Below are positions 1-5,628 of a DNA stretch of 55,615 nucleotides, in pieces. A model generated the notes under the pieces. That model saw nothing but the letters and a program-made list of their open reading frames with translations, ran no database searches and was not told the origin of the DNA. Position numbers and translations under genes: made by a program. Position 1 is the stretch's first letter; the number at the start of each line of letters is the position of its first letter. Origin of the DNA: Magnetococcales bacterium (GTDB lineage Bacteria; Pseudomonadota; Magnetococcia; Magnetococcales; Magnetaquicoccaceae); the NCBI GenBank assembly GCA_015231915.1, contig JADGAR010000023.1:1-55615 (forward strand), written 5' to 3'.

Positions 1-2959
1 TGACCACGTCCACCTCGGTCAAGAGGGAGTTGTGCGTCAGGCCGAGGATGAGCAGGGCGGTCAAAAGAAACAGCAGGCGTTCCCGGCGTTCTCCCCGCAG
101 GTGGACCGGAATGGCCAGCAGGAACAAAAGCAGGGCGGCCAGGCTTTCCGGTTGCAGGCGGGCAGGGCGTCCGTCCGCGTCGTTCCAGTTGGCCAGTTGT
201 GTGCCGAAGCCGACCGGCATGGCGGCGCGGGCGGCGCGGTTGATGGTCGTCAAGGCGGCCTGGCCGGTGATCGTGGCCCCGCTCATGCCGTCCAGCCTGT
301 CCAGGCCCAGCGGGCCATGGTGCAGATTCCGGCCCGTCAGGGAGGCCAGCCACTCTTCGATGCCCCGGATGTAGGACGGGGTCTCCCGGGATTCGACCAG
401 CCGCGCCCCGCGCAGGATGCCTTCGGCGTCCAGGGCGATCAGGAGGTTCAAAGGCCCGGCGAATCCGCGCACGTCCGGGACCACGGGCAGGGTGGCCAGG
501 GTGATGGTGGCGGGTTGGGCGTTGCCCAGTCCCAGGTAGTGGGGAAAGGGGGTTTCCCGGTAGGTGAAGCTGGCGGAGCCGCTGACCTGGCCAAGCAGGC
601 TTTCGTCGAAGGTGGTGCGGGGGCCGGGGGCGGTTTGCCGGGCGACGGCGCCCAGCAGCAGGGCGGTGAGCAGTACCAGCCAGGCGATGGCGGTCACGCT
701 GGTGTTGGCGAAAGAGGGACGCAGGCGGGTCCTGAACGCGGGGTGATGGTGGATCTGCGGCATGGGGAGGAGGGGGACGATGGCCAGCAGGGTGAGTCCT
801 GCCAGGAGCTTGCCGCTCCCGGCGAAGCCGAGCACCGGGATGAGCAGTCCGCCGGCCAGCACACCGCCGAGGGCGCCGCCCAGGTGGTCTGCGGCCTCGG
901 CCAGTCCGCCGGATTGGAGGGGCGAGGGCGTGGCCTGTGCCGCCAGGCGCACGGCCAGGGGAAAGCCGCTCCCGGCTGCCACGCCGGTCAGGGCGGCCAG
1001 GGCGAAGAACAGCCATGCGCCGGTGGCGGGGCTTGCCTGCAGCAGCGGGGTGAAGGAGACGCCGAGCAGGGCCATGGTGGTCAATGCCGCTGCCAGGCGT
1101 GGCGCGGCCCGCCCGGCGGGGGAGGGGAGGCGGGCGCCCAGCGCCAGTCCGGCCATGAAGACCCCGTTGAGCAGGGCCAGTTGGCCGAAGAGATGGCCGA
1201 AGCGGGTTTGAAAGCCGAGCAGGATCATGAGTTGCATGGCCATGGCCACCGCCCCCAGGATCCCCAGGGTGAAGCCGATGCCCAGGCGATCCCGTTGCGC
1301 CCCAGGCGGGGCGAGGGGAAACAGGGCCAGAAAGACCAGCACCGGCGCCAGATAGGGCCAGGGTCCCAGGCGGCGCGCCAGATCGAGGAACTCCCCCATG
1401 CCCGAGGCGGTGAATTTGCCCCACAGGACCATGTTCAGAAAGAACGTGACCGGGTTGAGATCGGTATTGAGGGTGACCTCCTCGTCTTCCAGGCGTTGCA
1501 GGAGTTGGGCGGTGCGGGCCTCCGGCAGCCACTGGGAGAGAAATCCGGCGGGGGGGATCTCCCCTTCCGGTTGGTTGCGTGCGTAGCGTTGCGCGAGGAT
1601 GGCCGGATCCGAGGAGACCGGGCCGTCGGCGGCGGAGGCGCAAAAGGTGTGCTGATCCCCTGGGACCACCATCACGCGCCCGAAGACCGCCTTCAGGGTG
1701 TGGAAGGTGGTGCCGCTGTAACTGCGCACCTCCCGGCCCAGGTAATTGGAGGCAGCCCCGACACGGGTGCACAGGACCCCTTGCGGGGCCATGACCTCGC
1801 GCAGCCGGGTGTAGAATTCCCTGGTGAAGTAACGGTTCGCGCGGGCGCTGAAGGGATCGCCGGCCAGGATCAGCACCAGGTCCGGTGGTTCGGTTTGCTC
1901 CATGCGGTTGACGAAGGCGCGGCCATCGGAAAAATTCAGGCTCAGGCGCGGGTCGTCGAGGGGGAAGGGGAGGTGCGGGCGGATCATGGCAAAGGCCGTT
2001 TGATCCTCTTCCACGGCCACGAGGCGCTCCACGGAGGGGTGGCGCAGGAGCGCGGTCGCCAGTCCGTCCGCGACGCCGCCGAACAGGAGGATCCGGCGCG
2101 GGGTTTCGGCCTGGGAGACGAAGAAGGCCGCCTCCATGGCCATGCGGGTGGAATTGGGAAAGCTGGCGCCGATGCGCCCGTCGGAGATGACGGAGAACTG
2201 TTGCCCGCGTGCGCCCAGGGCGGTGTGGCCGAGGCGGCTTTCCACCGAGGCCACCAGGTGCAATCCGGGGTGGACCGCCTGGAAGCGCAGGCGTTCCATT
2301 TCTTGCTGGAGGTAGGGGCCGATGGGGGTGACGCCCAGGATCAGGCCCGCGGTCAGGGTCATCGACCCGGCAAAGCGGCGACCCGGTGGGGATGCGGCCA
2401 GAATGGCCGCGCCCAGGGCAGCGGCGGTGATTCCCAGGATCGGCCATGCCTGCAGCCGTTCCACCAGGACGAAGACGAACAGCAGCGCCCCGGCGAGGGC
2501 GCCCAGGGCCTCCATGACATAGAGGGTGGTGACCCCCCCGGTGTTGGGTTGATTCTTGCAAGCCATGGGGAAGAGCATGCCCAGGATCCAGCCGGTGGGG
2601 GCGGTCAGCAACAGGGCCGCTGCCAGCAGGTAGCCCAAGGGGATGAACTCTCCGGCGGGGGTCTCCCAGAGGAGGCGGACCAGGCGGATGGCCACGATCT
2701 GCCCGGCCAGGGCCAGGGGCAGGATGGCGGCCAGGGCCGCGATGCGTTCCCCGGCGGGGCGGCGCATGCCCGTCCACGCCCCCAGGCCGATCCAGCCCAG
2801 CCAGCCGCCGTAGAAGGCCCCGATGCTGATTTCGTTGCCGTGGAACGCCACCAGGAATTCGCGCGCCAGCAACGCCTGGGCGATCTGGGAGAAACCTCCC
2901 AGGCAGAAGAAGAGCAGCGGCAGGCGGGAGAGGGGGAGGCCGTTCATGGCAAAGAGCAT
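1..2959 (-). CDS. Membrane spermidine synthase-like protein with C-terminal FMN-binding domain (3' end outside window)
   Basis: The minus strand is open from about 2968 to the left edge, giving at least 986 codons with the C-terminus missing. Seen in order: an N-terminal set of hydrophobic helices; a SpeE-like Rossmann region at about residues 240-440 (LLFGGVADGLAT, an acidic VEED, DPRL, then FTREFYTRLREVM); a second block of helices; an FMN_bind-like domain ending in DGMSGATITG at about residue 890; then hydrophobic helices running off the window. SGAT-x-T is the motif that carries covalent FMN through threonine in NqrC/RnfG/NosR-type domains. Polyamine synthase activity is doubtful, since many membrane SpeE-like proteins are uncharacterised. 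Starts at 2947, 2959 and 2968 are all in frame; 2959 has a weak GGA upstream. It is divergent from the TPR gene at 3006. Confidence 0.75.
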   Translation of the reverse strand, partial: MLFAMNGLPLSRLPLLFFCLGGFSQIAQALLAREFLVAFHGNEISIGAFYGGWLGWIGLGAWTGMRRPAGERIAALAAILPLALAGQIVAIRLVRLLWETPAGEFIPLGYLLAAALLLTAPTGWILGMLFPMACKNQPNTGGVTTLYVMEALGALAGALLFVFVLVERLQAWPILGITAAALGAAILAASPPGRRFAGSMTLTAGLILGVTPIGPYLQQEMERLRFQAVHPGLHLVASVESRLGHTALGARGQQFSVISDGRIGASFPNSTRMAMEAAFFVSQAETPRRILLFGGVADGLATALLRHPSVERLVAVEEDQTAFAMIRPHLPFPLDDPRLSLNFSDGRAFVNRMEQTEPPDLVLILAGDPFSARANRYFTREFYTRLREVMAPQGVLCTRVGAASNYLGREVRSYSGTTFHTLKAVFGRVMVVPGDQHTFCASAADGPVSSDPAILAQRYARNQPEGEIPPAGFLSQWLPEARTAQLLQRLEDEEVTLNTDLNPVTFFLNMVLWGKFTASGMGEFLDLARRLGPWPYLAPVLVFLALFPLAPPGAQRDRLGIGFTLGILGAVAMAMQLMILLGFQTRFGHLFGQLALLNGVFMAGLALGARLPSPAGRAAPRLAAALTTMALLGVSFTPLLQASPATGAWLFFALAALTGVAAGSGFPLAVRLAAQATPSPLQSGGLAEAADHLGGALGGVLAGGLLIPVLGFAGSGKLLAGLTLLAIVPLLPMPQIHHHPAFRTRLRPSFANTSVTAIAWLVLLTALLLGAVARQTAPGPRTTFDESLLGQVSGSASFTYRETPFPHYLGLGNAQPATITLATLPVVPDVRGFAGPLNLLIALDAEGILRGARLVESRETPSYIRGIEEWLASLTGRNLHHGPLGLDRLDGMSGATITGQAALTTINRAARAAMPVGFGTQLANWNDADGRPARLQPESLAALLLFLLAIPVHLRGERRERLLFLLTALLILGLTHNSLLTEVDVV

Positions 2960-3005
2960 AGCGCACATTCCGTGCGGGTGTCATCCCGCGCCAAGGAGAG
3001 GAGGC

Positions 3006-5006
3006 ATGGAGGAGATGCGGGAGTGGATCCGGCGCGGCCTGGAGCATTTGGAGGCAAACCGCCTGGAAGAGGCGGGGGCCGCCTTCGACGCGGCCCTGGC
3101 GGGGGCGCCGGACGAACCGGAACTGCTGGCCCTGGCGGCCCAGGTGGCGCATCGGCGCGGGGAGCACGGGCGGGCGGTGGCGTGGTTCGGACGGGCGCTG
3201 GCGGCCTGCCCGCAGCGGGCCGACTGGCACGCCGGCCTGGGTCAGGCGCTGCGCGCCATGGGACGGAGCGCCCCGGCCCTCGAACGGCTGCGGGAGGCGG
3301 TGCGGCTGGATCCTGCGCATCCCGACCTGCGGCTGAATCTGGGGGTCGCGTTGCAGGAGGCGGGCCGGGTGGAAGAGGCCCTGGAGCACTACCGTGCGGC
3401 CATTGCCCTGGATCCGCGACTGGCTGCGGCCCATTATGACATGGGTGGTGCCTGTCAGGCCCTGGGGCGGTTCCAGGAGGCGGAAGCGGCCTACCGGGAG
3501 ACGATCCGCCTGCTGCCCGATCACTTCCGGGCGCATTATAATCTGGGGATGGTGTTGTCCAACGATGGCCGCGACGAGGAGGGGCGCGCGGCGTTCGGGG
3601 CGGCCTGGCGCATCTCTCCCGGCTATGCCCGTGCCCGCTGGAAGATGCTGCTGGATCTGCCGGTGCTGGTGATGGAGGAGGGGCACATCGCCCCCATGCG
3701 TGCGCGCTGGCGCGACGGGGTGCGGCAACTCCTGGAGACCCCCCTGGTCACGCCGGGGGAGATCCGCGAGGCCTGGGAGGCGGCCTCGGCGGTGAGCCAT
3801 TTTTATCTCAATTATCACGACCGCAACGATATCGAGGAGCAGAAGCTTTATGGACGCCTGTTGACCAGGGTGGCCGCCGCCGCCTTTCCGGCCTGCGCGC
3901 AACCTTTGGCGCGCCGACCTGCGGGGGAAAAACTCCGGGTGGGGTTCGTGTCGTCGTTTCTGTACGGTCATTCGATCTTCAAGACCCATGCGCGCTGGAT
4001 CACCGGCCTGGATGCCCACCGCTGCGTCTTTTACACCGGGACCGTCCAGGATGTTTCTGTGCAGTTCGTTGCGGAGCGGGTGGAGTGGTTTCGGCAATTC
4101 CCCCCGTCGCTGCCTGCGTCGGAGTTGATCGAGGCGATCGTCCGGGCCAGGCTGGATGTGTTGATCTATACCGATCTGGGCATGGATCCGCGCCTGCATC
4201 CCCTCTCCGCCTTGCGTCTGGCCCCGGTGCAGTGCAATGGGGGAGGCCATCCGGTCACCTCCGGGGTGGCTGCCATCGATCTGTTTTTTTCCAGTGCCCT
4301 GATGGAGCCGGAGAACGGGCAGGAGCACTATTCCGAGCGGCTGGTGCGGCTGCCCAATCTGGCGAGCTGCTATCCCCGCCCCAAAACCGCCATGGCCCGC
4401 CTGCCGGAGGGGTGGCAGCCGGGACGGGTCAATTACGTGAATCTGCAAAGCCTGTTCAAGCTGCTGCCGCAACACGACGAGGTCTATCCCCGCATCGCCC
4501 GCGAGGTGCCGGGGAGCCGGTTTTTTTTCATAGAGGTGACCGGGTGCGTCGCGGAACGGTTCCGGGAACGCCTGCAACGGGCCTTCGCCCGCTTCGGCAT
4601 GGATGCCGGGGAGTATTGCCGGCTGCTGCCCCGCATGGGTCAGGATGCCTTTTTCGGTTTGGCGCGGGAGGCCGATGTCATCCTGGACGGCATCGCCTGG
4701 TCCGGCAACAACAGTTCGCTGGAGGCCCTGGCGTTCGATGTCCCGATCGTGACCCTGGCCGGTCGGTTTTTCCGCAGTCGTCACACCCTGGGCATTCTGC
4801 GGCGCATTGGGGTGGAGGAGACCGTGGCGCGGGATCTGGATCATTTTGTCGAGTTGGCGGTGCGACTCGGTCTGGAACGCGGGTTGCGGGACGAGATCTC
4901 CGCGCGGATCGCCAGCCGCAAGGCGTTGCTTTACGAGGACGAGTCGGTGCCCCAGGCGCTCGGGGAGTGTCTCATCAGGCTGGCGAACGGTCTGGAAATC
5001 TGCTAG
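3006..5006 (+). CDS. TPR / SPINDLY-type O-linked N-acetylglucosaminyltransferase family protein (GT41-like)
   Basis: 666 residues. The ATG at 3006 follows a strong purine-rich ribosome site (AGGAGAGGAGG) and is preferred over longer in-frame starts. Residues 1 to about 230 are TPR repeats (for example HYRAAIALDP, HYNLGMVLSNDGR). From about residue 305 the sequence matches the GT41/SPINDLY catalytic region: LRVGFVSSF, LAPVQCNGGGHPVTSG, FFSSALMEPENGQEHYSERLVRLPN, and the C-terminal IAWSGNNSSLEAL followed by VPIVTLAGRFFRSR. In the family this region transfers GlcNAc or another sugar to Ser/Thr of proteins. Bacterial members often have GHPVTSG preceded by WW or WG, whereas here it is preceded by GG. 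The acceptor is unknown; the coiled-coil protein 43 bp downstream and rfbC may be co-transcribed. Confidence 0.85.
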   Translation: MEEMREWIRRGLEHLEANRLEEAGAAFDAALAGAPDEPELLALAAQVAHRRGEHGRAVAWFGRALAACPQRADWHAGLGQALRAMGRSAPALERLREAVRLDPAHPDLRLNLGVALQEAGRVEEALEHYRAAIALDPRLAAAHYDMGGACQALGRFQEAEAAYRETIRLLPDHFRAHYNLGMVLSNDGRDEEGRAAFGAAWRISPGYARARWKMLLDLPVLVMEEGHIAPMRARWRDGVRQLLETPLVTPGEIREAWEAASAVSHFYLNYHDRNDIEEQKLYGRLLTRVAAAAFPACAQPLARRPAGEKLRVGFVSSFLYGHSIFKTHARWITGLDAHRCVFYTGTVQDVSVQFVAERVEWFRQFPPSLPASELIEAIVRARLDVLIYTDLGMDPRLHPLSALRLAPVQCNGGGHPVTSGVAAIDLFFSSALMEPENGQEHYSERLVRLPNLASCYPRPKTAMARLPEGWQPGRVNYVNLQSLFKLLPQHDEVYPRIAREVPGSRFFFIEVTGCVAERFRERLQRAFARFGMDAGEYCRLLPRMGQDAFFGLAREADVILDGIAWSGNNSSLEALAFDVPIVTLAGRFFRSRHTLGILRRIGVEETVARDLDHFVELAVRLGLERGLRDEISARIASRKALLYEDESVPQALGECLIRLANGLEIC

Positions 5007-5049: not shown

Positions 5050-5628
5050 ATGAGCGGCCTGGCATTCGACACCTTGAAATTCAGCAAACGCCTGCGGGAG
5101 GCTGGCATGCCCGAGCTGCAGGCCGAGGCGCAGGCCGAACTGCTGGCCGAAGCCCTGGCGGATCGTCTGGCCTCCAAGGAGGATCTGGCGAGGCTGGAAA
5201 TGAACATGCGCGTGGAACTGGCAAAGGTGCACGCGGATCTGCAACGCGACATCAAGGCACTGGATCTGGAGATTGCCAATCTGCGCACGGAGATGTCCGC
5301 GATAGACGCCAATCTGCGCAAGGAGATGACCGGGATGGACGCCAATCTGCGCAAGGAGATGACCGGGATGGACGCCAATCTGCGCAAGGAGATGACCGGG
5401 ATGGACGCCAATCTGCGCAAGGATCTCTCCGCGATGGACGCCAATCTGCGCAAGGATCTCTCCGCGATGGACGCCAATCTGCGCAAGGAGATCTCCCTCA
5501 TCGAAGCCAACCTGAAACGGGAGATCGCAGCCTGCAAGGCGGATACCCTCAAATGGACCGCCGGGATGTTCGTGGCCCAGACCACGCTGATCATCGGCGC
5601 CATGTTCGCGATGCTCAAGCTGCATTAG
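5050..5628 (+). CDS. Coiled-coil protein with hendecad repeats and C-terminal membrane helix (DUF1640-like)
   Basis: 192 residues. The ATG at 5050 follows GGGAGGGGC. The N-terminal third (FDTLKFSKRLREAG, then QAEAQAELLAEAL) resembles the start of DUF1640/CCDC90-type proteins. The middle is a long helix built on an 11-residue unit, (M/I)DANLRK(E/D)(M/L/I)(T/S)x, encoded by six tandem 33-bp units. The C-terminus has one hydrophobic stretch (TAGMFVAQTTLIIGAMFAML) suited to anchoring the coil in the inner membrane. The function is not known; family members are coiled-coil membrane proteins. Perfect DNA repeats imply recent copy-number change. It lies between the GT41-like gene and rfbC on the same strand, with an 8-base gap to rfbC. 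Confidence 0.8.
   Translation: MSGLAFDTLKFSKRLREAGMPELQAEAQAELLAEALADRLASKEDLARLEMNMRVELAKVHADLQRDIKALDLEIANLRTEMSAIDANLRKEMTGMDANLRKEMTGMDANLRKEMTGMDANLRKDLSAMDANLRKDLSAMDANLRKEISLIEANLKREIAACKADTLKWTAGMFVAQTTLIIGAMFAMLKLH
5302..5499 (+). repeat. Six tandem 33-bp units inside the coiled-coil gene
   Basis: Units begin at 5302, 5335, 5368, 5401, 5434 and 5467. All share the core GACGCCAATCTGCGCAAGGA and differ mainly in the last nine bases (GAGATGACC, GATCTCTCC or GAGATCTCC). The length is a multiple of three, so gain or loss of units keeps the frame and lengthens the helix by 11 residues. Confidence 0.95.

Follow-up and report, generated by a model that had tools for sequence, protein, structure and literature searches.

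The NapH-like flavinylated systems, NosR and PceC among them, are the closest described counterparts of the protein that we analyse here. Most NapH-like proteins have an N-terminal extracytosolic FMN domain, and they are transmembrane electron carriers (PMC8238504); in NosR, the FMN is periplasmic and the [4Fe-4S] clusters are cytosolic (PMC7660919). Two further groups of proteins bear on the locus, these being the TM-SpeE proteins (PRK03612-like), in which hydrophobic helices are followed by a SpeE Rossmann domain, and the AmmeMemoRadiSam families (TIGR04335, TIGR04336, and TIGR04337). AMMECR1 and MEMO1 have a wide distribution that includes humans, and their radical-SAM partner is widespread too. 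To our knowledge, the prokaryotic AmmeMemoRadiSam system has no assigned reaction, and none was found in the literature that we searched.

The window, meaning the whole stretch of DNA that was analysed, is the entire 55,615 bp contig C49 of a Magnetococcales draft genome (G000). Here, a minus-strand frame runs from 2968 to 2 without a stop codon, its 989 codons being the 5' part of a fusion gene that is truncated by the contig end. Just as an earlier note on this DNA had described, the one frame joins hydrophobic helices, a SpeE-like region, more helices, and an FMN_bind domain. Its start is ambiguous, and can be placed at Met1 (2968) or at Met8 (about 2947), the latter being favoured by the relatives. 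In order of translation, with all coordinates on the minus strand, an N-terminal membrane block of seven predicted helices (TM1-7, 2309..2923) is followed by the SpeE-like Rossmann region (1367..2308, with its Spermine_synth core at 1763-2113), a second membrane block of eight predicted helices (TM8-15, 638..1366), the Pfam FMN_bind domain (PF04205, 230..466), and the start of a NapH-like membrane part (TM16-17, 14..145), which is cut at the contig end. The remainder of the gene, which the earlier note had proposed to look for beyond the window edge, was located by searching with a relative's C-terminal sequence, and begins at base 1 of contig C98 (L061), where it occupies bases 1 to about 762, or about 254 codons. 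Given a one-base overlap, the end of the C49 translation (...LLTEVDVV) and the beginning of that from C98 (NLSLGQF...) join in frame, and the putative junction would yield a protein of about 1243 residues (989 + 254).

Divergent from the fusion gene, the window also encodes a TPR-containing protein (2823-5006) that by eye is possibly OGT-like, and a TPR-like gene (L038, 1116-3191) is likewise divergent from the fusion gene in G042. Further along, an open reading frame at 5050-5628 contains a 33-bp unit present in about 6.7 in-frame copies (5275-5496), and its product is a coiled-coil-like ...DANLRKEM... protein.

Based on family-wide hydropathy, with the helix limits set by hand, we predict 21 helices in the fusion protein, with seven ahead of the SpeE-like domain, eight between this and the FMN domain, and six in the NapH-like part. 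The mean Lys/Arg counts of the short loops are mostly 1.0 to 4.8 on one side of the membrane and 0 to 1.1 on the other, and because of this bias the N-terminus and the CxxxCP motifs are predicted to lie inside, and the SpeE-like domain, the FMN domain, and the C-terminal tail outside. We predict the periplasmic location of the SpeE-like domain with moderate confidence, since the Lys/Arg bias places the domain of intact TM-SpeE enzymes outside too. These ordinary TM-SpeE proteins, whose active-site motifs are intact (L132, L135, and L136; G022, G293, and G341), have seven predicted helices, and an extracytosolic SpeE domain is odd for an enzyme using a cytosolic substrate. The AlphaFold2 model (window protein plus one relative) had a mean pLDDT of 32, too low to bear on the topology. 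As for the folds, a combined profile built from 10 sequences retrieved solved spermidine synthases (1.2e-19) and RnfG (1.8e-11) at the two respective regions, which excludes chance for both matches.

The FMN_bind assignment, which the earlier note had made by eye from its SGATITG motif, was upheld by the Pfam model, as residues 835-913 score 29.6 bits, and 34.9 bits in the search of the protein's own genome, against a cut-off of 22. Within this domain, the SGAT flavinylation motif (272..283, minus strand) includes the predicted acceptor Thr899; G897, A898, and T899 are invariant in all nine fusion proteins that extend to this region, with the motif reading either SGAT or TGAT. An ApbE gene, for which the note had proposed a search, is present in the window's genome (C67:97504-98364, 276 bits), and Thr899 is a likely site of covalent flavinylation by ApbE. 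No ApbE was detected in G037 and G043, both of them draft genomes with the fusion gene. Moreover, the note's suggestion of a NapH/NosR-like iron-sulfur part in the unseen C-terminus proved correct. The C98 continuation encodes two CxxxCP motifs and one CxxCxxC, as in NapH/NosR, and Fer4_5 (PF12801) lies above its cut-off in three relatives, the full-length relatives combining Fer4_5, FMN_bind, and Spermine_synth. Among 10 proteins, the eight invariant cysteines of the NapH part are 1024 and 1028 (CxxxCP), 1118 and 1122 (CxxxCP), and 1150, 1162, 1165, and 1168. As read from the sequences, the predicted redox anatomy of the fusion protein is well supported.

The fusion protein thus resembles the NapH-like flavinylated systems in having a predicted extracytosolic FMN_bind domain with an SGAT motif, followed by a CxxxCP membrane part, as well as an ApbE encoded in the genome. 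What sets it apart is the TM-SpeE-TM module of about 780 residues fused ahead of these parts, and the end of the chain, where the CxxxCP motifs are succeeded by a short CxxCxxC and then by one further helix and a conserved tail, GGWRR. Its gene partners differ too, being AmmeMemo genes and not a known reductase. It also departs from NosR proper, as none of the loci read showed a recognisable nos gene next to the fusion, and there is only the CxxCxxC instead of a full C-terminal ferredoxin. The genome's own NosR is probably another protein, encoded on C38, which has 716 residues, FMN_bind, and a NapH-like match.

Turning to those gene partners, the end of the fusion gene is separated from a downstream second-clade radical-SAM gene (rSAM2) by 1 bp in G026, 3 bp in G018, and 30 bp in G043, and in each of these genomes the rSAM2 gene is followed by AMMECR1 or Memo-AMMECR1 genes. 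The partners, as rSAM, AMMECR1, and Memo proteins, pass the cut-offs of TIGR04337 (rSAM), TIGR04336, and TIGR04335, and so belong to the AmmeMemoRadiSam families, though with two differences. First, rSAM2 is a second, divergent type, scoring about 367-397 bits versus about 540-660 bits for full-length common rSAM, and forms a separate clade (support 0.993). In addition, most of the partner AMMECR1 proteins, which are usually fused to Memo, open with an apparent signal peptide, as judged by eye. From this gene context, we infer that the partner of the fusion is an exported AmmeMemoRadiSam system, to which it would be an additional component, outside the three. G000 itself has the fusion on C49/C98 and the rSAM2 operon on C54 (L093), the two being unlinked; in this operon, rSAM2 comes before Memo-AMMECR1, which is followed by genes for a chemoreceptor and then for a membrane protein with a Gate domain.

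This Gate-domain protein, about 430 residues long and matched to PF07670 in G000 (L093, 5614-6900), is encoded 3' of Memo-AMMECR1 in seven genomes, either directly after it or past a chemoreceptor gene (equivalents in L094-L096 and L098-L100). A sulfotransferase-like gene, identified by eye, adjoins rSAM2 in the window's genus (L093, 39-794, with equivalents in L094, L095, and L096). Selenocysteine was also considered for the rSAM2 copies, and was dropped as a candidate because the reported in-frame TGA (10 copies) is an ordinary C-terminal stop in G018 and G043. In these two, the alignment extends past the stop, and the G026 rSAM2 also ends at its stop.

Among 398 Pseudomonadota genomes, the fusion occurs in 11 and rSAM2 in 11, with both found together in 10 (Fisher 5e-18, a value that ignores kinship). 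Restricted to the 48 Magnetococcales, the co-occurrence gives 1.8e-8; stratification by family gives about 7e-5. The exceptions are both draft genomes, these being G008 (rSAM2 with no fusion detected) and G037 (fusion with no rSAM2 detected). Physical adjacency of the fusion and rSAM2 is seen in only three of the 11 genomes. Exported Memo-AMMECR1 is also present without the fusion (G021, G036, G040, G044, and G045), and is therefore not strictly dependent on it, so that the fusion and rSAM2 make up a tight pair and the link to Memo-AMMECR1 looks looser. In the Pseudomonadota genomes and plasmid records searched, all full-length copies of the fusion are in Magnetococcales; the plasmid records contained SpeE-domain matches and no full-length fusion. 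Elsewhere, FMN-NapH matches were seen in three other genomes, with no AmmeMemo genes recognised in the two neighbourhoods inspected by eye. G239 and G351 encode FMN_bind-NapH proteins of about 430 aa that have no SpeE part (L129 and L130), the neighbours in G239 being exported flavoprotein and cytochrome-like genes.

An assembly or frameshift artefact that fuses unrelated genes would fit the termination of the G000 contigs within the gene, and the break at almost the same point (C41/C63) in G001, a close relative (MAG WMHbin3, PDZX01000005.1) found by scanning genome contigs with narrow peptide patterns. Moreover, in G002:C57, one frameshift interrupts the gene between its TM-SpeE-FMN and NapH-like parts (L035, 9603-13130, minus strand), and does so in the zone where the G000 and G001 contigs end, which may reflect a pseudogene or a sequencing error; breaks at the same zone in three genomes are perhaps an assembly problem. 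However, the lacking part is present in frame at the start of C98, and five genomes from other families (G018, G026, G030, G039, and G042) encode the entire architecture in unbroken frames of 1245-1394 aa. Since these relatives carry the full arrangement in a single frame, with no frameshift between the SpeE-like part and SGATITG, where the earlier note had thought one conceivable, the fusion can be taken as real and the artefact given a negligible chance. We also find it very unlikely that the protein is a working membrane-bound polyamine aminopropyltransferase, or a polyamine transporter under redox regulation. While residues 286-402 match Spermine_synth at 45.2 bits (Pfam cut-off 22.9), and most acidic residues at alignment positions that bind the nucleoside in SpeE are retained, the NCBIfam SpeE models score far under their cut-offs (69.4 versus 260, and 47.8 versus 249.55). 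In the alignment, the position of the catalytic Asp (DxxDP), which we take to be D170 in T. maritima numbering, is occupied by another residue in all 11 fusion sequences, and in the 10 that cover both motifs, GGGDGG is degraded, with loss of its Asp, and DExxYHE is gone. The functional roles given to these named residues are those that we presume from spermidine synthases in general. The predicted periplasmic location of the domain also weighs against polyamine chemistry. Because the catalytic Asp and the substrate motifs are lost, the fusion is not a polyamine synthase, and with FMN_bind passing its cut-off and ApbE encoded, the earlier note's view of an envelope redox protein stands. Compared with TM-SpeE proteins, with which it shares the helices, the Rossmann domain, and a similar N-terminal sequence pattern, the fusion has lost the catalytic residues, bears the FMN_bind and NapH parts, and has Cys443 (FCAS; 1640..1642, minus strand), which is invariant across the fusion family and absent in the ordinary TM-SpeE proteins compared. 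Cys400 (1769..1771, minus strand) is invariant in all 11 fusion sequences, and the two cysteines, in strands taken as neighbours, could form a disulfide.

In our preferred reading, which we consider fairly probable, the fusion is a flavinylated NapH/NosR-like single-chain transmembrane electron-transfer protein that serves an exported AmmeMemoRadiSam system. Here, Fe-S clusters at the cytosolic face would pass electrons to, or take them from, a periplasmic FMN that ApbE would attach to Thr899 of the FMN_bind domain. A whole TM-SpeE-like protein (seven helices, Rossmann domain, and eight helices) would be fused ahead of this NapH/NosR-like unit, and its catalytically dead SpeE-like module would, at a guess, probably serve periplasmic docking, sensing, or ligand binding. 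The chain would work with the rSAM2 enzyme and an exported AMMECR1 protein that is in most cases fused to Memo, and most likely exchange electrons with the latter in the periplasm. Alternatively, the protein may be a NapH/NosR-like respiratory conduit for another periplasmic oxidoreductase, with the AmmeMemo link being a co-inherited anaerobic gene set and no common mechanism. This we regard as unlikely, even with some observations on its side, as many oxidoreductases make modular use of FMN-NapH proteins (PMC8238504), AMMECR1 is a general anaerobe marker (PMC13386939), and in G000 and its close relatives the fusion is not linked to the AmmeMemo genes. Yet the near 1:1 co-occurrence with one rSAM clade survives family stratification, the fusion is tightly adjacent to rSAM2 in three families, and no oxidoreductase gene was recognised beside it in the loci read, most neighbours there being assigned by eye.

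A term search in the main texts of two flavinylation surveys returned no mention of a SpeE-like fusion, and we found no literature linking SpeE-like, FMN_bind, and AmmeMemo proteins. What is new here is the co-occurrence of the fusion gene with a distinct second rSAM clade of AmmeMemoRadiSam. Since a redox-type component co-varies with one clade of this system, transmembrane electron exchange becomes a testable hypothesis. If true, AMMECR1 and Memo proteins would be partners in a periplasmic redox reaction, a prospect that we put forward tentatively.
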